From Gemmatimonadaceae bacterium (GTDB lineage: Bacteria; Gemmatimonadota; Gemmatimonadetes; Gemmatimonadales; Gemmatimonadaceae): DNA of 32,551 nucleotides. Of this stretch, positions 4,276-24,723 are shown piece after piece (position 1 is the first letter of the stretch; every line of letters starts with the position of its first letter). Location of the stretch: assembly GCA_019694735.1 (NCBI GenBank), contig JAIBBJ010000139.1, positions 1-32,551 on the forward strand, in the 5' to 3' direction. A program made the translations under genes and the position numbers. The notes below the pieces were generated by a model. That model saw only the letters and a program-made list of their open reading frames with translations. It was not told where the DNA came from and did not search any database.

Positions 4276-5430
4276 TCACCACCCGCGGTGGTTCGCCCAG
4301 CGCGCGACGAGACGCTCGCCCTCGTGCACCTCGTAGTGGGCGAACTGCGCGGCGGTGAGGCACGAGTGGTTCGCGACCACCCGCACGCGCGCCCCCACGG
4401 CGAGGCGGTCGAGCAGCGGCTCCGGCACACCGTCCACCCAACCATGCTCCTGCGAGAGCGCGGTCACCCGGAGGCCGAGCGGCTCGCCGTCGAGGGTGAC
4501 GAGATGCCCGTAGTGCGTCACCCCGTCCGCGTCCGCGATGCCCGCGTCCTTGCTCAGCGCGATCGCCCCGGCATCGACGACGAGGCGGCCGCGCACGCGG
4601 TCCCGGTGCACCACCGCCGTGAGCACCGTGAGGGCGCAGTCGGCGGCCGCGCAGGTGCCGATGCGGACCTGCATGCCGTCATGGAACACGTAGTTGCCGG
4701 TGCGGACCTCGTCGATGCCCTCGAGATGGTCGACGTGGGTCGCGGTCGGCGTCGAGCCGATGCTGGCCACGGGCACCGGGATGCCGCGGGCGGCGAGCGT
4801 CGCCCGCGCGGCGACCATCGCGTCGCGCTCCTCGCGCGCGACGGCGCGGCACTCGTCCGCGCTGCGGGCCCGGTAGGCGTGGCCCGCATGGGTGAGGAGC
4901 CCCGCGAACCGGAGCGCGGTCCGCTCGCCGATCCGCTGCACGAGCTCCCCGAAGGCGGGGGTGGACGGGTCGACGCCGCAGCGGTGGTAGCCGCAGTCCA
5001 CCTTCACGTACACGTCGAGCGTGACCCCCGCGCGCTGCGCCGCGGCGGCGAGCGGCCCCGGCACGTCGAGGTCATCGGTCAGCACCGCGAGGCGCGTCCC
5101 GGCGGCGACCATCGCCGTGACGGCCGCGAACTTCCCCGGCTCGACCGGCACCGCGTACGTGATGTCGTCGAAGCCGTGCGCGGCGAACGCCCGCGCCTCG
5201 GCGAGCGTCGAGACGGTGATGCCGCGCATCCCGGCCGCCTGCTGCAGCCGCGCGACCTCGATCGCCTTGTGCGTCTTCACGTGCGGCCGCAGCGCCGCGC
5301 CCATCCCGGCGATGCGCGTGCCCATCCGCTGCACGTTGCGCACGACGATCGCGTGGTCGGCGAGGAGGCTCGGCGTGGGGAGCGTGCCGATCGTCGGGGG
5401 GCCGGCGGGCGCGGCGGCGGGGGCGCTCAC
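4276..5430 (-). CDS. PLP-dependent D-serine dehydratase / D-threonine aldolase family enzyme
   Basis: 384 residues. An alanine-racemase-type N-terminal TIM barrel is followed by the D-serine dehydratase-like C-terminal domain. The PLP lysine is K52 in RPHVKTHK. The metal site typical of this fold is visible as NHSC near the end (H355 and C357). Both eukaryotic-type D-serine dehydratase (DSD1) and D-threonine aldolase share these features, so substrate cannot be fixed from motifs. Its ATG overlaps the stop of the upstream RidA gene by four bases (ATGA), so the two are probably translated together. D-serine dehydration releases 2-aminoacrylate, the classic RidA substrate, so this pairing favours a dehydratase over an aldolase; that is inference. 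The protein has no signal peptide and is probably cytoplasmic. Confidence 0.88.
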   Translation of the reverse strand: MSAPAAAPAGPPTIGTLPTPSLLADHAIVVRNVQRMGTRIAGMGAALRPHVKTHKAIEVARLQQAAGMRGITVSTLAEARAFAAHGFDDITYAVPVEPGKFAAVTAMVAAGTRLAVLTDDLDVPGPLAAAAQRAGVTLDVYVKVDCGYHRCGVDPSTPAFGELVQRIGERTALRFAGLLTHAGHAYRARSADECRAVAREERDAMVAARATLAARGIPVPVASIGSTPTATHVDHLEGIDEVRTGNYVFHDGMQVRIGTCAAADCALTVLTAVVHRDRVRGRLVVDAGAIALSKDAGIADADGVTHYGHLVTLDGEPLGLRVTALSQEHGWVDGVPEPLLDRLAVGARVRVVANHSCLTAAQFAHYEVHEGERLVARWANHRGW

Positions 5431-5813
5431 GCGCGCACCGCGGCGATGCAGTCGATCTCGCAGAGCACGCCGGGCTTGAGCTCGCGCGTGGGGATCACCG
5501 CGCGCGCCGGCCGTGCGTCACCCAGCACGCGGGCGTAGGTCGCGTTCACCGCGCCCCAGAGCGCCATGTCGGGGACGTAGACGGTGAGCCGGAGGGCGTG
5601 CGCCCAGTCGCTCCCGGCCGCGACGAGCACGGCCTCGATGTTCCGGAGCGTGCGCTCCAGCTGCGCCTCGAGGCCGCCGGGGACGAGCTCGCGCGTGGCC
5701 GGATCGAGCGGGAGCATCCCCGCGACGTAGACCACGCCCTGGTGGACGGTCGCCTGCGAATAGTGGCCCGCGGGGGCCGGGGCGTCGGGGGTCGAGACGT
5801 AGCGGACGGTCAT
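5427..5813 (-). CDS. RidA family enamine/imine deaminase (canonical active site)
   Basis: 128 residues, the usual length for the RidA/YjgF trimer fold. Visible signatures are PAGHYSQATVHQGVVYVAG near the start, the catalytic arginine R104 in RPARAVIP, and E119 in the CEIDCIAAV strand. Retention of the arginine places it with the active Rid1-3 type, which hydrolyse reactive enamines/imines such as 2-aminoacrylate to 2-keto acids. The next gene on the same strand, a D-serine dehydratase-like PLP enzyme, starts inside its stop codon. The likely job is to clear 2-aminoacrylate made by that neighbour. Compare the second Rid protein at 14133-14531, which lacks the arginine. Confidence 0.9.
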   Translation of the reverse strand: MTVRYVSTPDAPAPAGHYSQATVHQGVVYVAGMLPLDPATRELVPGGLEAQLERTLRNIEAVLVAAGSDWAHALRLTVYVPDMALWGAVNATYARVLGDARPARAVIPTRELKPGVLCEIDCIAAVRA

Positions 5814-6650: not shown

Positions 6651-9080
6651 GTGCGCGTGCTCGTCGTCGGCGGGGGACCGGGAGGGCTCTACGCGGCGCT
6701 GCTCCTGAAGCGCCGCGACCCTGCGGCGCACGTCGAGGTGCGCGAGCGCAACCGGCCCGACGACACCTTCGGCTGGGGCGTCGTCCTCTCCGACCAGACG
6801 GTGGACAACCTCGTCGCCGCCGACCCGGCCGGGGGCGCGGCGATCCGCGACCGCCTCCATCGGTGGGACGACATCGCGGTCCACTTCGGCGGCTGCACCG
6901 TCCGCTCCGGCGGGCACGGCTTCAGCGGGATCGGCCGCCACGAGATGCTGCGGCTCCTCCATGCCCGTTGCCGCGAGGTCGGCGTGGTCCTCCGCTTCGA
7001 GACCGAGACCGACCCCGACCTCGGCGCGCTCCTCGCCCGCGAACCGTTCGACCTCGTCCTCGCCGCCGACGGCCTCAACAGCCGCGTGCGCGAGCGCTAC
7101 GCCGACGCCTTCCGGCCCGCCGTGGACCTGCGCGCCTGCCGCTACACCTGGCTCGGCACGCCGCGCCGCTTCGATGCCTTCACCTTCGACTTCGTCGAGA
7201 CGCCGCACGGCTGGTTCCAGGCCCATGCGTACCAGTTCGACGGGACGATGAGCACGTTCATCGTCGAGACGCGCCAGGAGACGTGGGAGCGCACGGGGCT
7301 CGACGCGATGGACGCCGACGCGTCCATCGCCTTCTGCGAGCGGCTCTTCGCCGCCCGTCTCGACGGCGCGCCGCTCCGCAGCAACGCCCACCATCTCCGC
7401 GGCTCCGCCGCCTGGATCCGCTTCCCGCGCATCACCTGCGCCTCGTGGGTCCACCACCTCGATGCGCCGCACGGTCGCGTGCCGGTGGTCCTCCTCGGCG
7501 ACGCCGCGCACACGGCCCACTTCTCCATCGGGTCGGGCAGCAAGCTCGCCCTCGAGGATGCGATCGCGCTCGACCGCATCCTCGCCGCACGCCCGAGCGA
7601 CACGGCAGCGGCGCTCGCGGCCTATCAGGCCGAGCGCAGTGTCGAGGTGCTCAAGCTCACCAACGCCGCGCGCAACTCGACCGAGTGGTTCGAGCACGTC
7701 GCACGCTACGCGACGCTGGCGCCCGAGCAGTTCGCCTACTCGCTGCTCACGCGCTCGCAGCGCATCTCGCACGAGAACCTGCGCCAGCGCGACGCCGGCT
7801 ACGTCGCCGCGTTCGAGCGCTGGTTCGCCGACCGCGCCACCGCGGCGGCGACCGATCCGCCGGACGCCGCCCGCGAGGGCCTCGCGTCCGCGGCGGAGCC
7901 GCCCGCGGCCGCGAGGCCGGCGCCCCCGCCGCTGCTCACGCCGTTCCGTGCGCGCGGGGTCACGCTGCCCAACCGCGTCGTCGTCTCGCCGATGGCGCAG
8001 TACTCCGCCCTCGAGGACGGGACGCCGAGCGAGTGGCACCTCGTCCACCTCGGCGCGCGCGCGAGCGGCGGCGCCGGCCTCGTGATGACGGAGATGACCT
8101 GCGTCGCCGCGGACGCGCGCATCACGCCGTGGTGCCCCGGCCTCTGGACGACCGGCCACCGCGAGGCGTGGGCGCGGGTCGTGCGCTTCGTGCACGAGTG
8201 GACACCGGCGCGGATCGGGCTGCAACTCGGGCACGCGGGCGCGAAAGGCTCCACGAGGCGGATGTGGGAGGGGATCGACCAGCCGCTCCCCGAGGGGAAC
8301 TGGCCGCTCATCGCGCCAAGCGAGACCGAGTACCTCGCCGGGGTCTCGCAGCGCGCCCGGGCGATGACCCGCGCCGACATGGACCGCGTGCGCGACGAGT
8401 TCGTCCGTGCCACGCGGCTCGGCGCCGAGGCCGGCTTCGACTGGCTCGAGCTGCACGCGGCGCACGGGTACCTGCTCAGCGCGTTCCTCTCGCCGCTCAC
8501 CAACCGGCGCACCGACGCGTACGGCGGCGATGCGGAGGCCCGCGCGCGATTCCCGCTCGAGGTGTTCGCCGCGATGCGCGCCGCGTGGCCCGCCGACCGC
8601 CCGATGTCGGTGCGGCTCTCGGCGCACGACTGGGCGCCCGGCGGCAACACGCCGGACGATGCGGTCGTGCTGGCGCGGCTGTTCAAGGCGGCGGGGGCGG
8701 ATGTCATCGACGTCTCCGCGGGCCAGGTCGTGAAGGCCGAGCAGCCGGTGTTCGGGCGCATGTGGCAGACGCCGTTCGCCGACCGCGTGCGGCAGGAGGC
8801 GGGGGTAGCCACGATCGCCGTCGGTGCGATCACCGATGCCGACCAGGCGAACGGCATCATCGCCTCCGGCCGCGCCGACCTCGTCGCCGTCGGCCGCCCG
8901 CACCTCGCGAACCCGGGGTGGTTGCTGACCGAAGCCGCCCGCTTCGGCTACGCCGGCACCGCGCCGCTCTGGCCGCCGCAGTACCGGGCGGCGAAGCAGC
9001 AGCTCGACCGGCTGATGGAGCGCGAGCGCGCGGCGATGGGCGCCGCCGCGGGCGCGCCCCCCAAGGGAGAACTCACGTGA
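6651..9080 (+). CDS. Bifunctional aryl-CoA monooxygenase/reductase (2-aminobenzoyl-CoA monooxygenase/reductase or salicylyl-CoA 5-hydroxylase type)
   Basis: 809 residues from a GTG chosen for its Shine-Dalgarno (AGGGGAT) and because MRVLVVGGGPGGLYAA begins the FAD-binding fold. Residues 1-390 are a group A flavin monooxygenase: GGGPGG at 7-12, the D140-G141 motif, and the GD motif at G283-D284 (LLGDAAHTAHF). A low-complexity Ala/Pro linker (about 398-425) leads to an Old Yellow Enzyme barrel at 428-790 (SPMAQYSALEDG, QLGHAG, ELHAAHGYLLS, SPLTNRRTDAYGG). This architecture is the one known for 2-aminobenzoyl-CoA monooxygenase/reductase of Aromatoleum/Azoarcus, which hydroxylates and then reduces the ring of anthraniloyl-CoA. 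The automatic name for relatives is salicylyl-CoA 5-hydroxylase/oxidoreductase. The aryl-CoA ligase and Rid protein downstream favour an amino-aromatic substrate. It is first in the operon. Confidence 0.87.
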   Translation: MRVLVVGGGPGGLYAALLLKRRDPAAHVEVRERNRPDDTFGWGVVLSDQTVDNLVAADPAGGAAIRDRLHRWDDIAVHFGGCTVRSGGHGFSGIGRHEMLRLLHARCREVGVVLRFETETDPDLGALLAREPFDLVLAADGLNSRVRERYADAFRPAVDLRACRYTWLGTPRRFDAFTFDFVETPHGWFQAHAYQFDGTMSTFIVETRQETWERTGLDAMDADASIAFCERLFAARLDGAPLRSNAHHLRGSAAWIRFPRITCASWVHHLDAPHGRVPVVLLGDAAHTAHFSIGSGSKLALEDAIALDRILAARPSDTAAALAAYQAERSVEVLKLTNAARNSTEWFEHVARYATLAPEQFAYSLLTRSQRISHENLRQRDAGYVAAFERWFADRATAAATDPPDAAREGLASAAEPPAAARPAPPPLLTPFRARGVTLPNRVVVSPMAQYSALEDGTPSEWHLVHLGARASGGAGLVMTEMTCVAADARITPWCPGLWTTGHREAWARVVRFVHEWTPARIGLQLGHAGAKGSTRRMWEGIDQPLPEGNWPLIAPSETEYLAGVSQRARAMTRADMDRVRDEFVRATRLGAEAGFDWLELHAAHGYLLSAFLSPLTNRRTDAYGGDAEARARFPLEVFAAMRAAWPADRPMSVRLSAHDWAPGGNTPDDAVVLARLFKAAGADVIDVSAGQVVKAEQPVFGRMWQTPFADRVRQEAGVATIAVGAITDADQANGIIASGRADLVAVGRPHLANPGWLLTEAARFGYAGTAPLWPPQYRAAKQQLDRLMERERAAMGAAAGAPPKGELT

Positions 9081-9847
9081 AGCCCCTCGCAGGAGAGCAC
9101 GTCCTCGTCACCGGCGCCAACCGCGGCATCGGCGCGGCCATCGTCCGGCATCTCGCCCGCGCGGGCGCCGACGTCTCGCTCCTCGTCCGCACCGCCGCCA
9201 CCGCGGAGCCGCTCGCGGCGGAGGTCCGCGCGGCCGGCGGCCGCGCCGTGGTCGTCACGGCGGACGTCACCGACACCGCCGCGCTCACGCGCGCCATCGG
9301 CGAGGCGGCCGCCGCGCTGGGACCGGTGCGGGTGCTCATCAACAATGCCGGCTCCGCCGAGACCGTCCCCTTCCTCAAGAGTGATGCGGCGCTCTTCCAG
9401 CGCATGCTCGCGATGCACCTCCTCGCGCCGATGCACGCCGCGCAGGCGGTGCTGCCGGCGATGCTCGCGCGCGGCGAGGGGCGCATCGTGAACGTCGCCA
9501 GCATCGCCGGGCTCGGCGGCGGCCCCTACATCGCGGCGTACGTGAGCGCGAAGCACGCCGAGATGGGGCTCACGCGTGCCCTCGCGGCCGAGTTCGCCGC
9601 CAAGGGGATCCGCGTCAACGCCGTCTGCCCGGGCTACGTGGACACCGACCTGGTCAGCGAGTCCGTCGCGCGCATCGTCACGAAGACGGGCCTCAGCGCC
9701 GAGCAGGCCCTCGCCACCATCCTCAAGGAGTCCGGCCAGCGTCGGCTCGCGACGGTGGACGAGGTGGCGGAGGCGGTGATGCGGTTCGCCCGGCCCTCCG
9801 GCACGGAGACGGGCCAGGCGGCGGTGGTGATGGGGGAGCCGGCGTGA
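9077..9847 (+). CDS. SDR family oxidoreductase (probable hydroxyacyl-CoA dehydrogenase step)
   Basis: 256 residues from a GTG overlapping the preceding stop by four bases (GTGA). It is a classical short-chain dehydrogenase: cofactor motif TGANRGIG (12-19), LINNAG at 87-92, and the full catalytic set S142, Y155 and K159 (YVSAK). [10 protein letters not shown] follows, as usual in FabG-like enzymes. In this operon it would oxidise or reduce a ring or chain hydroxyl/keto group of a CoA intermediate; which step is inference. Confidence 0.86.
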
Positions 9848-10395
9848 GCACGCGCGCCCCGGCGGCGGGCACCCGGCGGCGGGCACGCGCGGCGCGTCCG
9901 CCGGTCGGTCGCGCGACGCCGCGCGACCCCGAGACGCGCCTCCAGGGCGACGACCACGAGTCGCTGCGGCTCTGGCTGCGGCTCTTCACCTGCACGACGA
10001 TGGTGGAGCGCGAGATCGACCAGCTGCTCAAGCGGTCGTTCGCCTCGTCGCTCCCGCGCTTCGACGTGCTCGCGCAGCTGGAGCGCGCGCCCGACGGCCT
10101 GCGGATGAGCGAGCTCTCCGCCGCCACGCTCAGCACCGGCGGCAACGTGACCTGGCTCGTCGCCGCGCTCGAGGACGAGGGGCACGTGCGCCGGCGGACC
10201 GCCTCCGAGGACCGCCGCGCGACCATCGTCACGCTCACCGCCGGCGGCCGCCGCCACTTCGCGGCGATGGCGCGGGCGCACGAAGCGCTGATCGTCCGGC
10301 TCCTCGCCGGCCTGAGCGCCGGCGAGCGCCGCGCCCTGCACGCCCTGCTCGGGCGCGCCAAGCAGCATCTCCGACACGAGGGGACCCCGACGTGA
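9844..10395 (+). CDS. MarR family transcriptional regulator
   Basis: 183 residues from GTG, again with a four-base overlap upstream (GTGA). Residues about 40-180 form the MarR winged-helix domain: [23 protein letters not shown], a recognition helix near 97-112 ([19 protein letters not shown]), and the wing with the conserved DRR (123-125) followed by LTAGGRRHF. The first ~35 residues are an Arg/Ala/Pro-rich tail beyond the usual MarR length. It lies inside the operon it probably controls, which would make it autoregulated through the palindrome at 6592-6609. By analogy with MarR regulators of aromatic-CoA pathways such as CouR, the ligand may be an aryl-CoA thioester; that is inference. Confidence 0.9.
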
Positions 10396-11234
10396 CCGAC
10401 CCGATGACCGCGATGCGCCGCCCGCTCGGCGGCCGAACGCCGACCCACTTCGACTGGGCGCTCACGCACGGCGGCCGCGTCGGCGTGATCACGCTCCGTC
10501 GCCCCGAGCGCAAGAACCCGCTCACGTTCGAATCGTACGCCGAGCTGCGCGACCTCTTCCGCGACCTCCCGTACGCGAGCGACGTCCGGGCGATCGTGCT
10601 CACCGGGGCCGGCGGGAACTTCTGCTCCGGCGGCGACGTGTTCGAGATCATCGAACCGCTCACGCGGATGGCCGTGCCCGAGCTGCTCGCCTTCACCCGC
10701 ATGACCGGTGACCTCGTGAAGGCGATGCGCGCGTGCCCGCAGCCGGTGATCGCCGCGGTGGACGGCGTGGCCGCCGGCGCCGGCGCGATCCTCGCGATGG
10801 CGAGCGACCTCCGGCTCGCGACGCCGCGCGCGCGCACGGCCTTCCTCTTCACGCGCGTCGGCCTCGCCGGCTGCGACATGGGGGCGTGCACGATCCTGCC
10901 GCGCCTCATCGGGCAGGGGCGCGCGGCGGAGCTCCTGTTCACGGGGCGCGCGATGGACGCCGCGGAGGGCGAGCGGTGGGGGTTCTACACGGCGCTCGTC
11001 GAGCCGGAACGGCTGCGCGACGAGGCCATCGCCCGCGCCGGCACGCTCGCTGACGGTCCGGCCTTCGCGCACGCGATGACCAAGCGCATGCTCGAGCAGG
11101 AGTGGAGCGTCGGCGTCGAGCAGGCGCTCGAGATGGAGGCCCAAGCGCAGGCGCTCTGCATGGGCACGCAGGACTTCCGTCGCGCCTTCGAGGCCTTCGC
11201 CGCGAAGCGCCCGCCCGTGTTCGAGGGCGACTGA
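10392..11234 (+). CDS. Enoyl-CoA hydratase/isomerase (crotonase) family protein with non-canonical active site
   Basis: 280 residues from GTG, overlapping the MarR stop by four bases. The crotonase fold is clear: [15 protein letters not shown], the oxyanion-hole block [13 protein letters not shown] (71-83), [19 protein letters not shown] (125-143) and [18 protein letters not shown]. By hand alignment the two glutamates of true enoyl-CoA hydratases are absent. I133 stands in the first position, and threonine or arginine (T154/R155) near the second. An aspartate, D162 in GCDMG, is kept, at about the place of the catalytic Asp of dienoyl-CoA isomerases and related crotonase-fold enzymes. So simple hydration is doubtful; isomerisation or hydrolytic ring opening of a cyclic ketoacyl-CoA is possible. 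The operon context supports an aromatic-derived CoA substrate. Confidence 0.85.
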
Positions 11235-11257
11235 CATGCGCCGCCCCGGAAGGTCCG

Positions 11258-12490
11258 ATGCCCGCTGAACGGCCCACGCTACCCGGCCCGTCGCACCTCG
11301 AGTGGCCGTTCCTCGGCGACGAGCATCGCGCGCTCGCCGCGGAGGTGGCACGGTTCCTCGCGCACGCGCCCGCCACGGATGCCCCGGCGCACGCCCCGGC
11401 GCACGCCGACCCGCACGACCACGCGACAACGGACGCCGCCTGCCGACGCTGGGTGCGCGCGCTCGGCGACGCCGGCCTGCTGCGCCACGGCGTGCCGGCG
11501 CCGTTCGGCGCCCATCCGGCGATCTCCTCGCGGGCCCTCTGCGTCCTCCGCGAGGCCCTCGCGGCCCACGACGGCCTCGCCGACTTCGCCTTCGCGATGC
11601 AGGGGCTCGGTGCCGGTCCGATCTCGCTCGGCGGGACGCCGGCGGCGCGCGAGGCCTGGCTCCCGCGCGTGGCGAGCGGCGACGCGATCGCCGCCTTCGC
11701 GCTCTCGGAACCCGACGCGGGGTCCGATGCGGGCGCGCTCGCCTGCCGCGCCACGCGCACCGACGGCGGGTGGCGGCTCGACGGCGTCAAGACCTGGATC
11801 TCGAATGGCGGGATCGCCGACTTCTACTGCGTGTTCGCGCGCAGCGACGCTGCGTCCACCGGGGCCAAGGGCGTCAGCGCCTTCCTCGTGCCGGCGACGA
11901 CGCCGGGCCTCGACGCGAGCGCGCGCCTCGCCACCATCGCGCCGCATCCGCTCGCCACCGTCCGCCTGGACGGCTGCGTCGTCCCCATCGACCACCTGCT
12001 CGGCGAGGAGGGGCGCGGCTTCGCGCTCGCGATGCAGGTGCTCGACATCTTCCGCACGTCGGTCGCGGCCGCGGCAGTCGGTTTCGCGCGCCGGGCGCTG
12101 GCCGAGGCGCTCGGCCACGCCGGGCGGCGCGCGATGTTCGGCGGCACGCTCGGCACGCAGCCGCTCGCCCAGGCGATCCTCGGCGACATGGCGACCGACG
12201 TGGACACCGCCGCGCTCCTGACGTACCGCGCCGCCTGGCAGCGCGATGTGACCGGCACCCGCACGACGATGGTCGCGGCGATGGCGAAGCTCGGCGCGAC
12301 GGAGCTTGCGCAGCAGGTCATCGACCGCGCGGTGCAGCTGCACGGCGGGCAGGGGGTCGCGTCGGGGGCGGTCGTGGAGCGGCTCTATCGCGAGATCCGC
12401 GCACTCCGCATCTATGAAGGGGCGAGCGAGGTGCAGCGCCTGCTCATCGGGCGCGAGGCGCTGAAGGCCGCCGGCGCGGAGGGCCGATGA
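11258..12490 (+). CDS. Acyl-CoA dehydrogenase
   Basis: 410 residues from an ATG with GGAAGG four bases upstream; the longer open frame overlaps the previous gene and is not used. Visible signatures are FALSEPDAGSDAGALA and WRLDGVKTWISNGG in the middle domain, and the C-terminal YEGASEVQRLLIGREAL with the probable catalytic base E387. The N-terminal region carries a His/Pro/Ala-rich low-complexity stretch around residues 38-60. It would introduce a double bond into a CoA thioester, passing electrons to electron-transfer flavoprotein, which is not encoded here. A 23-base gap separates it from the crotonase gene, and its stop overlaps the start of the ligase gene. Confidence 0.9.
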   Translation: MPAERPTLPGPSHLEWPFLGDEHRALAAEVARFLAHAPATDAPAHAPAHADPHDHATTDAACRRWVRALGDAGLLRHGVPAPFGAHPAISSRALCVLREALAAHDGLADFAFAMQGLGAGPISLGGTPAAREAWLPRVASGDAIAAFALSEPDAGSDAGALACRATRTDGGWRLDGVKTWISNGGIADFYCVFARSDAASTGAKGVSAFLVPATTPGLDASARLATIAPHPLATVRLDGCVVPIDHLLGEEGRGFALAMQVLDIFRTSVAAAAVGFARRALAEALGHAGRRAMFGGTLGTQPLAQAILGDMATDVDTAALLTYRAAWQRDVTGTRTTMVAAMAKLGATELAQQVIDRAVQLHGGQGVASGAVVERLYREIRALRIYEGASEVQRLLIGREALKAAGAEGR

Positions 12491-14136
12491 CCGCGACATC
12501 GCATCCCAGCGCGCACCGGGACGACTGGCCGCGCCGACAGCTGCCGCCGGCGGCGGAGTGGCCGGTGCTCACCGCCGAGCCGCCGTACGCCTATCCGGCG
12601 CGCCTCAACTGCGTCACCCGCCTCCTCGATGACGCGATCGCCGACGGGCAGGGCGACCGCGTCGCGCTCGTCGTCCCCGACGCGCACGGCGGATGGACCG
12701 AGGTCAGCTACGCCTCGCTCCAGGCGGAGGTGGACGCACTCGCGCACGTACTCACGCAGGACCTCGGACTGGTGCCCGGCAACCGCGTGCTGCTGCGTGG
12801 CTTCAACGGGCAGTGGATGGCCGCCGCGTGGCTCGCGACGCTCAAGGCCGGGCTCGTCGCGGTCACGACCATGCCGCTGCTGCGCGCGAAGGAGCTCGGG
12901 GTGCTCATCGAGCGCGCGCAGGTGCAGGCCGCCCTCTGCGATGCGCGCCTCGTCGACGAGCTGCGGCACGCCCTGCGCGCCCCGCTCGCACCCGAGGCGA
13001 TCCTCTGCTGGGGCGACGCGGGCGCGCAGGGCCTCGTGGCGCGGATGGCCCGCCACGGGCGTCCCTTCCCCGCCGTCGCCACCGCCAGCGACGACGTGTG
13101 CCTCATCGCGTTCACCTCCGGTACCACCGGCGTGCCGAAGGGCTGCATGCACTTCCACCGCGATGTGCTCGCGATGTGCGACGGCTTCTCGGCGCAGGTG
13201 CTCGGCCTCCGCCCCGGGGACCGCTGCCTCGGCACGCCGCCGCTCGCCTTCACGTTCGGGCTCGGCGGGCTCCTCGCGTTCCCGCTCGCGGCGCGCGCGA
13301 GCACGGTGCTGGTCGAGAAGGCCACGCCCGAGACACTGCTCGAGACGGCCGCCGCGACCGGCGCCACCGTGACCTGGACCGCGCCGACCTTCTACCGCCA
13401 GATGGCGCTCGCGATGCAGCGCGCGCCGGGCCGCTTCGACACGCGCAGCCTCCGCGCGTCGGTCTCCGCGGGCGAGGCGCTGCCGGATGCGACACGCACG
13501 CTCTGGCGCGACGCCACCGGCCTCGAGATGCTCGACGGCATCGGCGCGACCGAGATGATCCACATCTTCATCGCGGCCGCGGGCGCCGACGTGCGCCCCG
13601 GCGCGATCGGGCGCGCCGTGCCCGGCTACACGGTGGCGATCCTCGACGACGAGCTGCGGCCGGTGCCGCCCGGCACCGTCGGGCGCCTCGCCGTGCGCGG
13701 CCCCACCGGATGCCGCTACCTCGCCGACCCGCGCCAGCGCGACTACGTGCGCGGCGGCTGGAACCTCACCGGCGACGCCGCGGTGATGGACGCCGACGGC
13801 TACGTCTTCTTCAAGGCCCGCACCGACGACCTCATCCTCTCCTCGGGCTACAACATCGGTGCACCCGAGGTGGAGGCGGCGGTGCTGCAGCATCCCGATG
13901 TCGCCGAGTGCGCGGTGGTCGGCGTGCCCGACCCCGACCGCGGCCAGGCGGTGAAGGCCTTCGTGGTGCTGCGGCCCGGCGTGACCGGCGACGACGCGCT
14001 CGCGCGCGCGCTGCAGGACTTCGTCAAGGCGACCATCGCCCCCTACAAGTATCCGCGGCTCGTGGAGTTCGTGGCCGCGCTCCCCAAGACCGACACCGGG
14101 AAGCTCCAGCGCTTCCGCCTCAAGGAGGGCACGTGA
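12487..14136 (+). CDS. Aryl-CoA ligase (benzoate/2-aminobenzoate-CoA ligase family)
   Basis: 549 residues, with an ATGA overlap at its start. It is an adenylate-forming enzyme with the phosphate-binding loop TSGTTGVPKG (210-219), the motif GIGATEM (351-357), the hinge region FKARTDDLILSSGYNIGAPEVE, and the catalytic lysine K539 in PKTDTGKLQRF. The overall form, with GIGATEMIHIF and a compact C-terminal domain, resembles benzoate- and 2-aminobenzoate-CoA ligases. It would activate the aromatic acid with ATP and CoA and so feed the FMO-OYE fusion enzyme. Anthranilate is the favoured substrate because of that partner; benzoate or salicylate cannot be excluded from sequence. Confidence 0.87.
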   Translation: MTATSHPSAHRDDWPRRQLPPAAEWPVLTAEPPYAYPARLNCVTRLLDDAIADGQGDRVALVVPDAHGGWTEVSYASLQAEVDALAHVLTQDLGLVPGNRVLLRGFNGQWMAAAWLATLKAGLVAVTTMPLLRAKELGVLIERAQVQAALCDARLVDELRHALRAPLAPEAILCWGDAGAQGLVARMARHGRPFPAVATASDDVCLIAFTSGTTGVPKGCMHFHRDVLAMCDGFSAQVLGLRPGDRCLGTPPLAFTFGLGGLLAFPLAARASTVLVEKATPETLLETAAATGATVTWTAPTFYRQMALAMQRAPGRFDTRSLRASVSAGEALPDATRTLWRDATGLEMLDGIGATEMIHIFIAAAGADVRPGAIGRAVPGYTVAILDDELRPVPPGTVGRLAVRGPTGCRYLADPRQRDYVRGGWNLTGDAAVMDADGYVFFKARTDDLILSSGYNIGAPEVEAAVLQHPDVAECAVVGVPDPDRGQAVKAFVVLRPGVTGDDALARALQDFVKATIAPYKYPRLVEFVAALPKTDTGKLQRFRLKEGT

Positions 14137-14531
14137 CCCAGCGGATCCTGCAGCCGGAGGGATGGCCGCGCCCGCGCGGCTACGCGAACGGCATCTCGTC
14201 GCCGAGCGGCCGGACGATCGTCGTCGCCGGCCAGATCGGCTGGGACACCGAGGGCCGGCTGATGCCGGGCGGCCTCGTGCCGCAGGCGCGCAAGGCGCTC
14301 GAGAACATCGTCGCCGTGCTCGCCTGCGACGGCGCGCGGCCGGAGCACATCGTCCGGCTCACGTGGTACCTCACCGACATCGCCGACTACCGCGCCTCGG
14401 GCCTCGCGCTCGGCGTCGCGTACCGGCAGGTGATGGGCAAGCACTTCCCGGCGATGACCGCCGTCGCGATCACCGCCCTCGCCGAGCCGGGTGCCGTGGT
14501 CGAGATCGAGGCGACCGCCATCGTGCCCTGA
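14133..14531 (+). CDS. Rid family (YjgF/YER057c/UK114) protein lacking the catalytic arginine
   Basis: 132 residues from GTG, overlapping the ligase stop by four bases. The Rid fold is evident: GYANGISSPSGRTIVVAGQIGWD, ALENIVAVLACDGARPEHIVRLTWYLTD and the final VVEIEATAIV strand. At the position of the catalytic arginine (RPAR in the canonical protein at 5427-5813) this one has FPAMTAV, with methionine M108. It therefore resembles the arginine-less Rid4-7 groups, which are not active on 2-aminoacrylate and are often tied to specific pathways. Placed after an aryl-CoA ligase and an anthraniloyl-CoA-type monooxygenase, it may act on the enamine nitrogen of a cyclic CoA intermediate. This is inference. 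Confidence 0.86.
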   Translation: MTQRILQPEGWPRPRGYANGISSPSGRTIVVAGQIGWDTEGRLMPGGLVPQARKALENIVAVLACDGARPEHIVRLTWYLTDIADYRASGLALGVAYRQVMGKHFPAMTAVAITALAEPGAVVEIEATAIVP

Positions 14532-14558
14532 CCCCGACGCCACGCGGCCATGGGCCGC

Positions 14559-14586
14559 TTGACGCCTTCCCCCCGCGCCGCATCTT
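14559..14586 (+). promoter_or_regulatory. Possible internal promoter before the KAS III gene
   Basis: TTGACG (14559-14564) and CATCTT (14581-14586) are spaced 16 bases apart, in the 66-base gap between the Rid and KAS III genes. The -10 match is weak. The ATG at 14598 follows 11 bases after it, and there is no evident Shine-Dalgarno. Confidence 0.35.
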
Positions 14587-14597
14587 CCCGCCTCACG

Positions 14598-15725
14598 ATG
14601 ACCTACGCCGCGATCACCGGGTGGGGCAAGTGCATGCCCCCCGCCGTCCTCACCAACGCCGACCTCTCGACCTTCCTCGAGACCTCGGACGAATGGATCG
14701 TCTCGCGCACCGGGATGCAGGAGCGCCGCATCTCCCATGTCAGCGCGATCGAGATGTCCACCATCGCCGCGAAGCGCGCCCTCGCCTGCGCCGGCGTCGC
14801 CGCCGCCGACGTGGACCTCATCATCTACGGCGGCTGCTCCAACGACGAGCTGGTCCCCAACAGCGCGAGCGGCGTGCAGATCGCGCTCGGCGCGACCCGC
14901 GCCGCCGCGATCGACCTCAACACCGCGTGCACGAGCTTCTGCTACGGACTCGCCACCGCGACCGCGATGATCCGCAGCGGCCTCGCGCGGACGGCGGTGG
15001 TGATCGGCGTCGAGCTCATCTCGCGCTACATGGACTGGTCCAACCGAAATGTCGCCGTGCTCTTCGGCGACGGGTCGGCCGCGGTGGTGCTCCAGGCCAC
15101 CGACCGCGAGGAGGGGATGCTCGGCGCGGTCATGGGCTGCGACGCCGAGGCGCGGCAGACGCTGCGCGTGCGCGGCTTCGGCTGCACCTACGCCGGCCGG
15201 CACGTCTCGTTCGGCGACACGATCTGGGACTTCGACGGCCAGGCGATCTTCAAGCGCGCCGTCGGGGCGATGGCGAGCGCGTCGGTCAAGGTCCTCGCCG
15301 ACCAGGGCGTCGCGCCCGAGCAGGTGCATCTCGTCGTGCCGCACCAGGCGAACCTGCGCATCATCGAGGCGGTCGCGAAGCACGCCGGGCTGCCGATGGC
15401 GAAGGTCATGCTCACGGTGCAGAAGTACGGCAACATGAGCGCCGCCACGGTGCCGGTCGCGCTCGTCGAGGCGCTCGAGGAAGGGCGCGTCGCGCCCGGC
15501 GGCTGGCTCCTCATGCCGGCCTTCGGCGGCGGGCTCACCTATTGTTCGCTGCTCGTGAAGTGGGGCGACCGCGTGACGCCGCTCGGCACGAGCGATGCGG
15601 AGCTGCCGCCGGTCACGCGCACCGCCCTCGAGATGGTCAACGCGATCCGCGCCGAGCAGGACCCGCATGGGCGGTCGCTCGCGGGGCTCATGGCGCCCTC
15701 GTTCGCGGAGACTTGGTCTACCTGA
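14598..15725 (+). CDS. KAS III (3-oxoacyl-ACP synthase III-like) enzyme with C-terminal extension
   Basis: 375 residues from the ATG giving MTYAAITGWGKCMPP; an in-frame ATG at 14550 would add an unlikely basic leader. The KAS III catalytic triad is complete: C111 in NTACTSFCYGLA, H249 in VVPHQANLRI, and N279 in KYGNMSAATVP. TSDEWIVSRTGMQERR is the usual KAS III start block. After KWGDRV (about 326) a tail of about 50 residues goes beyond the usual ~320-residue FabH. No other fatty-acid synthesis gene is near. PqsD, a KAS III relative, acts on anthraniloyl-CoA, so use of an aryl- or cyclic acyl-CoA here is plausible. Alternatively it may stand in for the thiolase that the operon lacks. Confidence 0.87.
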   Translation: MTYAAITGWGKCMPPAVLTNADLSTFLETSDEWIVSRTGMQERRISHVSAIEMSTIAAKRALACAGVAAADVDLIIYGGCSNDELVPNSASGVQIALGATRAAAIDLNTACTSFCYGLATATAMIRSGLARTAVVIGVELISRYMDWSNRNVAVLFGDGSAAVVLQATDREEGMLGAVMGCDAEARQTLRVRGFGCTYAGRHVSFGDTIWDFDGQAIFKRAVGAMASASVKVLADQGVAPEQVHLVVPHQANLRIIEAVAKHAGLPMAKVMLTVQKYGNMSAATVPVALVEALEEGRVAPGGWLLMPAFGGGLTYCSLLVKWGDRVTPLGTSDAELPPVTRTALEMVNAIRAEQDPHGRSLAGLMAPSFAETWST

Positions 15726-16541: not shown

Positions 16542-18944
16542 TCACTCGTCCACGCGGATCCGCACCTCGCTCGCCGCGCCGTTCGCCGCGACGGCGCGGA
16601 TGACGTGCGGCCCGGGCCGCAGCGACCAGCGCGACCGTTCGTGCGCCACGCCGTCCACGAACCACCGCACGTCGCCCGTCGCGCCCGCGGCCCGGAGCGC
16701 GACGGTCGCGTAATCCACCGGGACGCCGGGCGGCAGCCGATACACGTCGCCGTCCGCCGGGGACGTGATGCGGAATCCGCGCGCGGCGGGCTCAGCCGCG
16801 CGCAGCGCGTCGCCCTCGCGCGGGGCGCGCGCGACCGCCCGCTCCGGTGGCGCCTCCTCCGCATCGGCCGCATCCGAACCGGAGGCGACGGCCGCCGATG
16901 CGCCGCCGATCCCCGGCCCCGCGCCCGACTGCGCGACCCACTCCGCGTACGCCTCCGGGAGCGACACGCGTCCGCCGCGCACCCAGGTGTCGGCTTCGCG
17001 CGGGACGCTGCCAGCGAGGAACCATTCGCGCACCCCGGGGCACTCGCGCGTCGCGAGCAGGCCGGAGACGCGGCAGACCTCCGCCGGCACGAGCCCCGCG
17101 TCCGCGGGCGTGACGAGCACCCCCGGCGCGACGCGGGCCGCGGTGACCATCACCGCGCGGTGCAGCAACGGGCCCGCGCCGGTCACGCCGCTCACGCCCT
17201 GCATCGGTCGGCCCGACACGTCCCCGGCCCACACCGCGACGGTGAAGGCGCCCGCCACGCCGATCGCCCAGTTGTCCGTGAAGTGGCGGCTCGTCCCCGT
17301 CTTCACCGCGACGGGGAACGGGAAGTCGAACGGCGTCTGCACGCCGAACCCGGGCACGCGCGCCGCCGGGTCGGCGAGGATGTCGAGCGTGAGCGCGGCC
17401 GCCCCGGCCGACACGACCTTGCGCCCGTCCCCGGGCGCGGCCGTCTCGTCCAGTCGCCAGTGCCAGCCGCGGTAGCGCCCGCCGTTCGCGAGCGCGCGGT
17501 AACCGTTCGCCACCTCGAGCAGCGTGACGTCGCCATTGCCCAGCGCGAGTCCCAGCCCGTAGTGGTCCGCCGTGCGCCGGAGCGAGGCGAGTCCGGCGAG
17601 GTGCAGGGTGTGGAGCAGGGCGCCCACGCCATGCTCGCGCGCGAGCAGCACCGCGGGGACGTTGTACGAGCTCGCGAGCGCCTCCCGCGCACGCACCGGG
17701 CCACGGAACCGGCGGTCGTAGTTCCGCGGCAGGTACGGCCCGCTGACGGTGTTGAACGTCGTCGGCACGTCGGCGAACACCGTCGCCGCGGTCGTGCCGC
17801 GGTCGAAGGCCATCGCGTACAGGAACGGCTTCAGCGCCGAACCGGGCTGCCGCGGCGACGTCACGAGGTCGGTCTGGCCCGTCACGGGGTCATCGAAGTC
17901 CGGGGAGCCCACCCACGCGAGCACGCCGCCGCTCGCGTTGTCGAGCACCACGACCGCGGCCTGGCGCACGCCGCGCTCCGCGAGCAGCGCGACCGACTGC
18001 CGGACCTCCGCCTCGAGGGCCGCCTGCAGTCCGGCGTCGAGGGTCGTGCGCACGGTCGCGTCGTGCGCGTCGGGCGGGACCTCCTGCAGCACGCGCGTCG
18101 TGAAGTGCGGCGCCAGGAACGGCTCCCGGGCGCGTCGCGCGAGCGCCGGCTCGCGGTCGGCCTCCGCGGCCACCGCCTCCGGGATCGCGCCGGCGCGTAC
18201 CATCCGCGCGAGGGCGACCCGCCGCCGCGCGACCGCGCGCGCGGTGGAGCGCACGGGATTGTCGCGCGACGGCGCATGTGCGAGCCCCGCGAGCATCGCC
18301 GCCTCGCCGACGCTCACCTCATCCGGCTCCGCACTCATATAGAAGCGTGTCGCCGCCGCGACGCCGGCCGTGTTCTGCCCGAGGTGCACCCGGTTCAGGT
18401 ACTGCTCGAGGATCGCCTGCTTCGACAGGTGCCACTCCAGCCGCACCGCCCACGCCGCCTCGCCCAGCTTGCTGCGCCACCCGCGCGCGGCCGGCCGGAG
18501 GAGGCGCGCGGTCTGCATCGAGATCGTGGACGCGCCCGAGACGATGCGGTCGCTGCGCCAGTTGTCGCGCGCCGCCCGCGCGACCGCGCGCAGGTCCACC
18601 CCATGGTGGTCCCAGAAGCGGCGGTCCTCCACCGCCACGAAGGCGACGATGAGGTCCGGGTCGATGCGCGTCAGCGGGACCCAGCGGCCGCGTGTGCCGT
18701 CCTCGGCCCGCGTGGTGCGCAGCAGCACGCCGTGCCGGTCGAGGATGCGCACGCCCGGCTCGGGCGGCGGCGCCAGCAGCGCGGCCGGCACGGGCATCGC
18801 CACCCACGCCGCGAATGCGGCGCACGCCACCACCGCGAGCGTCGCGCCCGCCGCAACGGCCCGCACCGCCCGCCGCGTGCCCCGCGCGCGCCGACGCGCC
18901 GCCGCTCCCTCCCCGACCCGGTCGCGCACCGCCCTCACCGCCAT
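16542..18944 (-). CDS. pbpC: Penicillin-binding protein 1C (peptidoglycan glycosyltransferase/transpeptidase-fold)
   Basis: 800 residues from the ATG at 18944, preferred over the GTG at 18950 because GAGGTGA, overlapping the upstream gene's stop, is then a well placed Shine-Dalgarno. One N-terminal membrane anchor lies near residues 27-55. The family 51 glycosyltransferase follows, with catalytic E106 in AVEDRRFWDHHG and the block SGASTISMQTARLL. The penicillin-binding domain has S369-ALK, S426-YN and K548-TG. The C-terminal ~85 residues (FRITSPADGDVYRLP onward) are the BiPBP_C domain typical of PBP1C. Only a single base separates the upstream alpha-2-macroglobulin stop from the longer possible start, so translation is likely coupled. 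It acts in the inner membrane/periplasm. Confidence 0.94.
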   Translation of the reverse strand: MAVRAVRDRVGEGAAARRRARGTRRAVRAVAAGATLAVVACAAFAAWVAMPVPAALLAPPPEPGVRILDRHGVLLRTTRAEDGTRGRWVPLTRIDPDLIVAFVAVEDRRFWDHHGVDLRAVARAARDNWRSDRIVSGASTISMQTARLLRPAARGWRSKLGEAAWAVRLEWHLSKQAILEQYLNRVHLGQNTAGVAAATRFYMSAEPDEVSVGEAAMLAGLAHAPSRDNPVRSTARAVARRRVALARMVRAGAIPEAVAAEADREPALARRAREPFLAPHFTTRVLQEVPPDAHDATVRTTLDAGLQAALEAEVRQSVALLAERGVRQAAVVVLDNASGGVLAWVGSPDFDDPVTGQTDLVTSPRQPGSALKPFLYAMAFDRGTTAATVFADVPTTFNTVSGPYLPRNYDRRFRGPVRAREALASSYNVPAVLLAREHGVGALLHTLHLAGLASLRRTADHYGLGLALGNGDVTLLEVANGYRALANGGRYRGWHWRLDETAAPGDGRKVVSAGAAALTLDILADPAARVPGFGVQTPFDFPFPVAVKTGTSRHFTDNWAIGVAGAFTVAVWAGDVSGRPMQGVSGVTGAGPLLHRAVMVTAARVAPGVLVTPADAGLVPAEVCRVSGLLATRECPGVREWFLAGSVPREADTWVRGGRVSLPEAYAEWVAQSGAGPGIGGASAAVASGSDAADAEEAPPERAVARAPREGDALRAAEPAARGFRITSPADGDVYRLPPGVPVDYATVALRAAGATGDVRWFVDGVAHERSRWSLRPGPHVIRAVAANGAASEVRIRVDE

Positions 18945-18951
18945 CGTCACC

Positions 18952-21900
18952 TCAGGGCGCCTTCGGCGTGACCGTGAACGTGCCGCCGTCGCTCCGCCCG
19001 TTCACGCCCGGGTCGTACATCTCCTCCGCGCGCGCCGGCGGCTTCAGGAACGTGCCCGGCGTCGTCGCACGCGCGACGTACGCGATGTCCCACGTGCCCC
19101 GCCCGAGCCACGACGCCGCCCACAGCACGCGGTCGTCGCGGATCTCCCGGAAGTCCCACGGGGACCACCAGCCGCCTTCGTACCGGCCGTAATCGAGTGC
19201 GTCGGACTCCCCCTCGTCGCCCTCGCCCTCCGCCTCGTCGGCCCGCGACGGTGCGCGCGGCGCACCGCCCACCAGCGAGGACGTGCGGAGGCTCAGGTCC
19301 ACGGCCTCGAGCCCCGCCGGCAGCGCATCGTCCACCACCACGAAGCGGCGCTCGGTGGGGACCGTGATGCGCAACCGGACGCGCACGAGCTCGCCCTCCG
19401 CCACCGCCGTCACCGGACGCGCGTCCGCGTAGCGCTCGTACCAGCGCTCGACGCGGATCCCGGCGTCCGACGGCGTCGTCGGGGGCTTCGCCGCCATCTC
19501 GACCAGCGCGACGTGGAAGAAGCTCGGGAGCGCCGCGACGCCCTCGGCCCGCACGAACAGCTGCACCGTGCGCTCGCCGTCCCGGACCGGCCCCAGCAGG
19601 GCCCCCACCGCGAGCGTGGTGTCGTGACGCGCCGTCGCGGTGCGCAGCACGACCTTCCCGGCGCTGCGCACGACCACCGGCCGCGGCGCCACCGCCGCGA
19701 AGGTGCGGTCGTAGATCGCGATCGCCCGCACCGCCGAGGCGATGTCCTGCGTGTTCCACCACACGTCGCGCCGCGGCGTCATCGCGAGGCGCTCGACGAG
19801 GGCGCCCACCAGCGGATGGCCCGGGTCGGTCGCGAGCGTCGCCGTCAGCAGCCACGCCACCTCGCGGGTCGCCGACGTGAAGTACCAGCGCGCGGTGTCG
19901 GCCGGCAGGGACGCGCTCCGCCCCTCCACGCGCGCCGAGGCCCACACCGGGGCGAGCAGCCGGCGCGCCTCCGCCGTCGCGCCGCGCCGCGCGAGCACCT
20001 CCGCGAGTCGGATCCGGTCCGCGCGGTCGAGCAGCCCCGCGCTGCGGACCAGTTCATTCTCGGCGGCGACATCCGCCCGCCCGACGCGGCTCAGCAGGTC
20101 CACCGCGGCCACCTGGTCCGCGAGGCGCGTCGCGCGCCGTTCGTACCACGCGGCGATCGGTCCCGTCCGCGTCGGCGCCTCCCGCAGCGCGGCCGCGAGG
20201 TAGTCGCCGACGCGCGCGAGCGCACCCGAGTCCACCGGCACGCCGACCTCGCGCGCCTCCACCAACGCCTCCGCGGCGTACGCCGAGAGCCACGGCGACG
20301 TCCAGTCGCCGCTCCCCCAGTAGCCGATGCCGCCGTCGGCGCGCTGCCGCCCGACGAGCACCGCGAGCCCACGCGCGACCTCCTGGCGGGCCCGGCGCGC
20401 CTCCGCGGAATCGAGCGCGCCTTCGGCGCGCAGCAGCGCGAGCAGCGGCAGCACCCGGCTCGTCACCTGCTCGGTGCACTCGTACTCGTACACGCGCAGC
20501 ATCTGCCGCATCCCGCGCACCAGCGTGAGCGGCGTGTTCCCCATCGTGAAGGTGAGCGTGGACCGCCGCGGGTCGATGTCCGCCGGCACCGTGAAGCGCA
20601 GCGTCGCCGTGTCGCGCAGCATCCCCGAGGCCACCAGCGTGCGCCCGAACACGTCGGGCTTCACGGGCACCGCGACGCGCACGGCGTCGCCGTCCGCGCC
20701 GGACCGCACGTCGAAGCGGAACGCGGCGCTGTCGCCGGCGGTGGCCGCGAACCGGAAGCGCGCCTCGACGCCGCGCCCCGCCGCGAGCGGCACGGTGCGC
20801 TGCGCTGCGCCGACGAGGCGCACGCCGCTCGCCTGCGCGCGCACCGTCGCCTGCGCCGCGCTCCCGTCGCGGCGGTTGATCACGGTGCCTGCGGAGAGCG
20901 TGTCGCCCGGGCGCACGAAGCGCGGCAGCGCCGGCCGCGCCACCACCGGACGCGTCACGAGCAGCGGCGTCTCGCCGCTCCCGTACCGGTCGGCATCGGT
21001 CGCGGCGACGGCCATCACGCGGAAGGTCGTCAGGTTGTCGGGCAGCGCCGCCTTCACCTCGGCGTTCCCCGCCGAGTCGGTGACGACGCTGCCGAGATAG
21101 AATGCCACGGTGCGGAAGCGCGACCGCAGCACCTCGGCGCCGTCCGCGCCACCGCCGCCGCCGGGCGCGCGCTGTCCCTTCTCGCCCGCGGCGACCTGCG
21201 GCGTCACCGACACGAGGTTGCTCGCGAGTCGCACGCCGAGCGCGCGCTCCTGGTAGATGAGGTCGAGCGGGTCAGGCGTCCGGTAGCCGGTGAGCGCGAG
21301 GACGCCCTCGTCCACCGCCCACAGCGCGACTTCACTGCGCGCCCCCGCGTTGCGGCGGTCGCGCACCGCCACCCGCACCAGGGCCGTGTCGGCCGGGCGG
21401 TACTCGGGCCGGCCGAGCGTGAGGTCCACGCGCAGGCGCTTCACCTCCGGCGTCACGCGGAGCCGCGCATAGCCGACGCGCATCGTCGGCCGGCCGGGGT
21501 CATCGAGCTTGCCCGGCGCCGCGCTGCGGCCGCGCACCATCACGATCGAGACGTAGGCGTTCGGCGCCATCGCCTCGGTGATCGGCACCTTCACCAGCTG
21601 CGAGCCCGACGTGATGCGCAGCCGGCGCTGCTCCAGCACCTGCTCGCGCTCCACGGTCAGCCACGCCTCCGCGTCGGTGAACGGCGCCGCCACCAGCAGC
21701 TCGGCCGTGTCCCCCACCGCATAGCGCTCGCGATCGGCGAAGAGCTCCATCTTGAACTGCGACTCGTCGTTCCACGGCACGAAGTCGCGCCCGGCCACCC
21801 ACCGCGTGAACGACGTCACCGCCGCGCGCCCCGCCTCGTCGGTGGCGCGGAACTCGATCGTGTGCACGCCGCCGCCCGTCGGCGTGAGCGTGCAGGCCGC

Positions 21901-24663: not shown

Positions 24664-24723
24664 CAACGATGTTGTGGGGCGCGCGACGCGTCCATAGCGG
24701 CCGCGCAGCCCCTCCCGACGACG

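Follow-up and report, generated by a model that had tools for sequence, protein, structure and literature searches.

A Rid protein with methionine in place of the RidA arginine as a candidate deaminase of CoA-dependent anthranilate degradation

The ABM gene run and its Rid protein

The window, i.e., the whole stretch of 32,551 nucleotides analyzed here, contains on its forward strand a run of genes coding, in this order, for a 2-aminobenzoyl-CoA monooxygenase/reductase (ABM), a MarR-family regulator, an enoyl-CoA hydratase, an acyl-CoA dehydrogenase, a ligase of the benzoate-CoA ligase type, a Rid protein, and a FabH-like condensing enzyme (Table 1). ABM joins a flavin monooxygenase and an old-yellow-enzyme domain in one protein, and its RefSeq family carries the name "bifunctional salicylyl-CoA 5-hydroxylase/oxidoreductase". 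With a fused ABM and with an aryl-CoA ligase and β-oxidation-type genes together, the run has a gene composition that fits the CoA-dependent aerobic anthranilate pathway. The real start of the acyl-CoA dehydrogenase probably lies downstream of the listed GTG. The FabH-like gene adjoins ABM only in the genus of the window (8 of 80 loci from the phylum Gemmatimonadota, plus locus L120); its product carries motifs with Cys (NTACTS), His (HQANLR), and Asn (YGNMSAA) and may be a thiolase or a ring-cleaving enzyme. Farther downstream, a gene for penicillin-binding protein 1C (16542-18950, minus strand) and a neighboring 1904-aa ORF on the same strand (18952-24666) are possibly the known PbpC/alpha-2-macroglobulin pair.

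Clusters for 2-aminobenzoate in Azoarcus evansii, reportedly described by Schuehle et al. in 2001, are said to comprise the ligase, ABM, β-oxidation genes, and a MarR gene, and a "putative translation inhibitor" is reportedly listed among their products as well, which we take to be an old name for the Rid family. Both the Rid family and this type of gene cluster were known before, and the neighborhood itself is not new; the window differs from the A. evansii clusters in having a FabH-like gene beside Rid.

Table 1. Features of the window discussed in the text.
Feature	Positions	Strand	Evidence or remark
PLP-dependent Ala-racemase-N / D-serine-dehydratase-like enzyme	4276..5430	-	PF01168, PF14031; NF045642 130.9 bits, below cut-off
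Second Rid protein, Arg104 kept in RPAR	5427..5813	-	PF01042, alignment
2-Aminobenzoyl-CoA monooxygenase/reductase (ABM)	6654..9080	+	NF006101 1238 bits, cut-off 1078; PF00724, PF01494
MarR-family regulator	9844..10395	+	PF12802, PF01047
Enoyl-CoA hydratase/crotonase-family protein	10392..11234	+	PF00378; NF006107 469 bits, cut-off 330
Acyl-CoA dehydrogenase	11102..12490	+	PF00441, PF02770, PF02771
2-Aminobenzoate (aryl)-CoA ligase	12487..14136	+	TIGR02262 360.6 bits, just below cut-off 375; PF00501
ABM-type Rid protein (PF01042), 132 aa, Met108	14133..14531	+	PF01042, alignment, AlphaFold2
Met108 codon ATG	14454..14456	+	replaces carboxylate-binding arginine of RidA
FabH-like condensing enzyme (end of the run)	14550..15725	+	TIGR00747 319.8 bits, cut-off 292

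The Rid protein of the run is clearly recognized by the profile of its family (E 1.5e-22, 80.2 bits versus a cut-off of 27.3). Its gene starts with GTG, carries AAGGAGG immediately 5' of the start, and shares positions 14133-14136 with the end of the ligase gene, stop codon included; in view of this overlap and of the AAGGAGG its translation is probably coupled to that of the operon. In place of the FPAR motif of RidA the protein has FPAM, Met108 aligning with Arg105 of E. coli RidA, as the earlier note had read it, whereas Tyr17, Glu124 (RidA E120), and Glu126 (RidA E122) are retained. Against TIGR00004, the model of the RidA subfamily, for which Arg105 is diagnostic, it scores 54.9, below the cut-off of 106.25.

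The AlphaFold2 monomer (pLDDT 95.6, pTM 0.91) is predicted to adopt a RidA-type fold, with a Foldseek E-value of 4.5e-13 to RidA and, in VIA, with Z 19.2 to RutC and Z 18-19 for many RidA chains. Among solved structures this protein has no close relative, the best match being 5v4f at 74.8 bits.

The source genome has five Rid genes, and the others include Arg-bearing ones. One of them is the second Rid of the window, which indeed contains two Rid proteins, as had been claimed before. This Arg-type Rid, divergently placed near ABM, is found only in the genus of the window, where it forms a tight clade of its own. Its gene overlaps that of a PLP enzyme of the D-serine dehydratase / 3-hydroxy-D-aspartate aldolase type (window 4276-5813, minus strand), a plausible source of 2-aminoacrylate. 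With the PLP enzyme next to the Arg-type Rid, the two Rid types of the window would each lie beside a possible enamine maker.

Occurrence and phylogeny of ABM-linked Rids

For the phylum Gemmatimonadota, to which the window belongs, the neighborhoods of 80 ABM genes were fetched, and 73 besides the window contain a full Rid gene at most about 10 kb away and on the same strand as ABM. At the position of Arg105, 71 of these 74 linked proteins have Met, the other 3 have Ile (loci L093, L109, and L113, the only ABM-linked Rids with Ile), and none has Arg. A contig scan, either with Rid peptide patterns from which the column of residue 105 was excluded or with the whole protein, returned loci beyond the Gemmatimonadota, namely from Pseudomonadota, Chloroflexi, Deinococcota (Meiothermus), Acidobacteria, Rhodothermales, Eremiobacterota, and SAR324; in all, the ABM-linked Rids span at least seven phyla. 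All 84 loci from genomes outside the phylum and from four plasmids (84 entries among which L120 duplicates G087, a genome of the same genus as the window) have Met. ABM is present in the locus or elsewhere in at least 76 of the 84 genomes or records, and the remainder are mostly short or truncated contigs. Altogether, relatives lying beside ABM or in ABM-bearing genomes have Met in 155, Ile in 3, and Arg in none of 158 cases, and in an independent sample of Pseudomonadota Met occurs in 34 of 34 Rid members. A selection artefact of the search can be ruled out as the origin of the Met, because the patterns stem from other parts of the protein and the even genome sample agrees. Chance or a sequencing error at the Met108 codon is likewise ruled out, Met or Ile being fixed in 158 loci.

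Two further features of these loci deserve mention. A second layout occurs within the phylum (L090-L115, e.g., L098), in which Rid lies about 3 kb upstream of ABM; Rids of this layout mostly have Trp instead of Tyr at position 17, and a Trp 2,3-dioxygenase gene often adjoins ABM. In several loci from Pseudomonadota, L116-L119 and others, a small thioesterase gene is situated directly upstream of Rid, sometimes overlapping it, which suggests that both products act on related CoA esters.

A tree of 119 Rids gathers the ABM-linked proteins in a single group (support 100/99), which persists when residue 105 is masked (SH-aLRT 91-92). Its neighbors are Rids with Ser, Thr, Asn, Ala, Gly, or Ile at position 105, i.e., other Arg-less Rids without Met, and the Arg-type Rids stand on the other side. 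Met is fixed in this ancient clade, which stands alongside other Arg-less Rids, and on these grounds a recent loss of the arginine within the operon is ruled out. The loss that the earlier note had proposed is thus real in the sense that the arginine is absent, but it is not a recent event. Some of the sampled ABM-bearing genomes also encode a sister paralog (six cases, L272-L277, 136-142 bits; G315 is a Bradyrhizobium) with Ser at position 105, Phe17, and Lys92. As the paralog has Ser within ABM-bearing genomes, Met follows ABM and not the host. Around the paralog of L272 (4644-5204, minus strand), the one whose surroundings were examined, no gene in the 10-kb locus matched the pathway queries.

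ABM is encoded in 140 of 298 Gemmatimonadota genomes. A profile of the ABM-type Rid separates its members from the other Rids of the phylum by a clean gap (at least 117 versus at most 90 bits), and by this measure 132 genomes possess both Rid and ABM, 8 ABM only, 5 Rid only, and 153 neither. In the discordant cases the genes lie mostly on contigs of 3-9 kb that end in or beside the cluster. In an independent, even sample of genomes from Pseudomonadota, Rid and ABM occur in the same 34 genomes; with the center genome left out, 33 have both, none has only one of the two, and 215 have neither. The corresponding p-values (Fisher, 2.6e-67 for the Gemmatimonadota; 8e-42 for the Pseudomonadota) are descriptive, as the counted genomes are related by descent. 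In two Pseudomonadota, G406 and G438, the genes for Rid and ABM are far apart, so the tie between them is more than physical linkage. This strict co-occurrence, together with the linkage elsewhere, supports the earlier suggestion of a pathway-dedicated Rid.

Cleft residues and relation to known Rids

Positions 73 to 122 are given here in the numbering of E. coli RidA, in which Arg98 and Met108 of the window protein are positions 92 and 105. Arg105 of RidA contacts the carboxylate of the substrate (PMC4433059, PMC4960622). In AtRidA, R165 and T167 bind the carboxylate and carbonyl of the ligand, F147 and P174 line the site, and E180 of the adjacent subunit lies 3.26 Å from the ligand carbonyl (PMC4960622); in our own alignment these residues are equated with positions 105, 107, 84, 114, and 120, respectively. 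Glu120 and Tyr84 are invariant among the ABM-linked Rids (each 158/158). Compared with the Arg-type Rids, they have Gly88 instead of Asn88 (155/158), Ala, Leu, or Val instead of Thr or Cys107, and a hydrophobic residue instead of Pro114. With Glu120 kept and positions 105, 107, 84, and 114 altered, the water side of the cleft seems to be conserved and its carboxylate side changed. Arg/Lys73 and Glu122 are retained as well; a salt bridge between K/R73 and E122 has been described at the subunit interface of AtRidA (PMC4960622), and the alignment shows that this interface pair is kept in the ABM-linked Rids, which presumably form homotrimers with clefts between the subunits. The nearest conserved arginine is Arg92, which occupies an aligned position different from that of Arg105. 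The earlier note had regarded a conserved arginine nearby as evidence against its reading, and on this point the outcome is mixed, because Arg92 is displaced from the site of Arg105 but is itself a nearly invariant gain of the clade (154 Arg and 3 Lys of 158).

With RidA/TdcF/UK114 (2-iminobutanoate/2-iminopropanoate deaminase), the ABM-type Rid shares the fold, Glu120, Tyr17, Gly31, and the pair K/R73 and E122, but it is distinguished by Met105, Gly88, Ala/Leu/Val107, invariant Tyr84, and Arg92. The Arg-less groups Rid4 to Rid7, whose function has been described as unknown (PMC4433059), are similar in lacking Arg105 while keeping the Glu, and the ABM-linked clade groups with Arg-less Rids. 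However, Rid4 and Rid7 have Trp at position 105, where all 158 ABM-linked proteins have Met or Ile, and Rid5 and Rid6 are variable there, in contrast to a clade in which Met is fixed and which is tied to one pathway. The tree places the clade among Arg-less Rids in general, and a relation to Rid5 or Rid6 in particular is conceivable. AmnE (2-aminomuconate deaminase) resembles the proposed case as a Rid dedicated to ammonia release in the catabolism of an amino-aromatic compound, but it acts on a free-acid enamine, keeps Arg117 (PMC6742747), and shares 24% identity with the window Rid in a structural alignment. Similarly, RutC (3-aminoacrylate deaminase) is a Rid of one catabolic operon that speeds a step which water also brings about; in contrast, its substrate is a free acid, and its Arg104 is present and essential (PMC8113886). 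The literature searched mentions neither a fixed Met at this position nor a separate clade with a one-to-one association with ABM in at least seven phyla, nor the thioester argument developed below.

Proposed role in the anthraniloyl-CoA pathway

Tryptophan seems a fitting origin of the anthranilate degraded by this pathway, as suggested by the neighboring genes: Trp 2,3-dioxygenase lies beside ABM in 26 and kynureninase in 5 of the 80 phylum loci, and in Thalassospira kynU and kynA belong to the same gene run as Rid. The source genome has a match for Trp dioxygenase and a weak, kynureninase-like match below the cut-off. The earlier assignment to an amino-aromatic CoA pathway is thus supported, and these genes speak indirectly for anthranilate, and not salicylate, as the compound degraded. 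Models for catabolism in GapMind omit the route from tryptophan through ABM because too little was known about it (PMC9007349).

Judged from sequence comparison and gene context, the Rid protein of the run is probably a deaminase that acts by hydrolysis and is dedicated to the CoA-dependent degradation of anthranilate. The ligase would activate anthranilate to its CoA ester, and ABM would convert the latter to 2-amino-5-oxocyclohex-1-enecarbonyl-CoA, the ABM product described in the literature. This cyclic β-enamino thioester is the most reasonable substrate that can be proposed for Rid. It would be held in the cleft between subunits of the presumed Rid trimer, where the changed residues (Met105, Gly88, Ala/Leu/Val107, Tyr84, and Arg92) might accommodate the ring and the thioester, and Glu124 may help to place or activate a water molecule at the amino-bearing carbon. 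Ammonia and 2,5-dioxocyclohexanecarbonyl-CoA, a β-keto thioester, would be released, and the hydratase/crotonase and the acyl-CoA dehydrogenase would then cleave the ring and oxidize the β-keto thioester. Arg105 would be dispensable in this reaction, because the carboxyl group of the substrate is a CoA thioester and offers no free carboxylate as partner. As the arginine of RidA binds the substrate carboxylate, its absence fits a thioester substrate and not a loss of catalysis. More generally, an ancient and separate Rid subfamily may well hydrolyze a β-enamino-CoA thioester, its arginine having been replaced for want of a free carboxylate, and may in this way account for deamination in the anthraniloyl-CoA route of tryptophan and anthranilate breakdown; no other Arg-less Rid is known to have a defined substrate.

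A CoA ester of the composition C7H8O4, perhaps a cyclohexanedione carboxylate, is reported for Arthrobacter Rue61a from cells grown on anthranilate and from no others, and the enamino-CoA is described as unstable at pH values below 5 and as yielding cyclohexanedione by hydrolytic deamination and decarboxylation; the portion of the article drawn on here names no enzyme for the formation of C7H8O4-CoA (PMC3534580). This composition is that expected for the deamination product of the ABM product. In the literature searched, a scope outside which many subscription papers lie, there is no named enzyme that deaminates 2-amino-5-oxocyclohex-1-enecarbonyl-CoA.

The main rival is that the enoyl-CoA hydratase of the same operon carries out the deamination, which it could do in principle, by adding water onto the β carbon to give a carbinolamine that loses ammonia, and that Rid only clears a stray imine or enamine by-product, e.g., a reactive tautomer formed before ring reduction. 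Hydrating α,β-unsaturated CoA esters is normal chemistry for hydratases, and within the cluster its gene is conserved to the same degree as that of Rid (78 of 80 phylum loci). Also, Rid proteins often pre-empt damage (PMC4433059, PMC8113886). However, Rid is present just as strictly as ABM itself, even in genomes in which the two genes are unlinked, which appears too strict for a minor clean-up role, and the hydratase is needed for later steps too; we therefore consider this division of labor unlikely. Still less probable is a catalytically inert Rid that serves as regulator or binding protein, e.g., as sensor of a CoA intermediate. Loss of the arginine abolishes the activity of RidA and RutC, and the Arg-less Rids assayed to date have no deaminase activity (PMC8113886), which counts against the proposed deaminase as well, but such inactivity is expected if other substrates are needed. 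The invariance of Glu120 and Tyr84 and the many newly fixed cleft residues speak against an inert protein, and regulation is already provided in the window by the MarR gene. That the protein is a general deaminase for enamines and imines of the 2-aminoacrylate type, present in the operon by happenstance, is highly improbable, since in spite of its PF01042 membership the arginine is missing, the same genome has Arg-bearing Rids, and its presence tracks ABM and not general metabolism. If Rid is the deaminase, a mutant may nevertheless grow, as under laboratory conditions the pathway served by RutC can do without it (PMC8113886).

The idea put forward in the earlier note is largely supported in substance, with the loss of the arginine now read as an old, substrate-linked change. 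An Arg-less Rid group is thereby tied almost one-to-one to an enzyme with known product chemistry, and the function of Arg-less Rids as well as the anthraniloyl-CoA route of tryptophan could both be addressed by one coupled assay. The proposal also offers a rule for the family, according to which Rids acting on free-acid enamines would keep the arginine and a Rid acting on a thioester would lose it.
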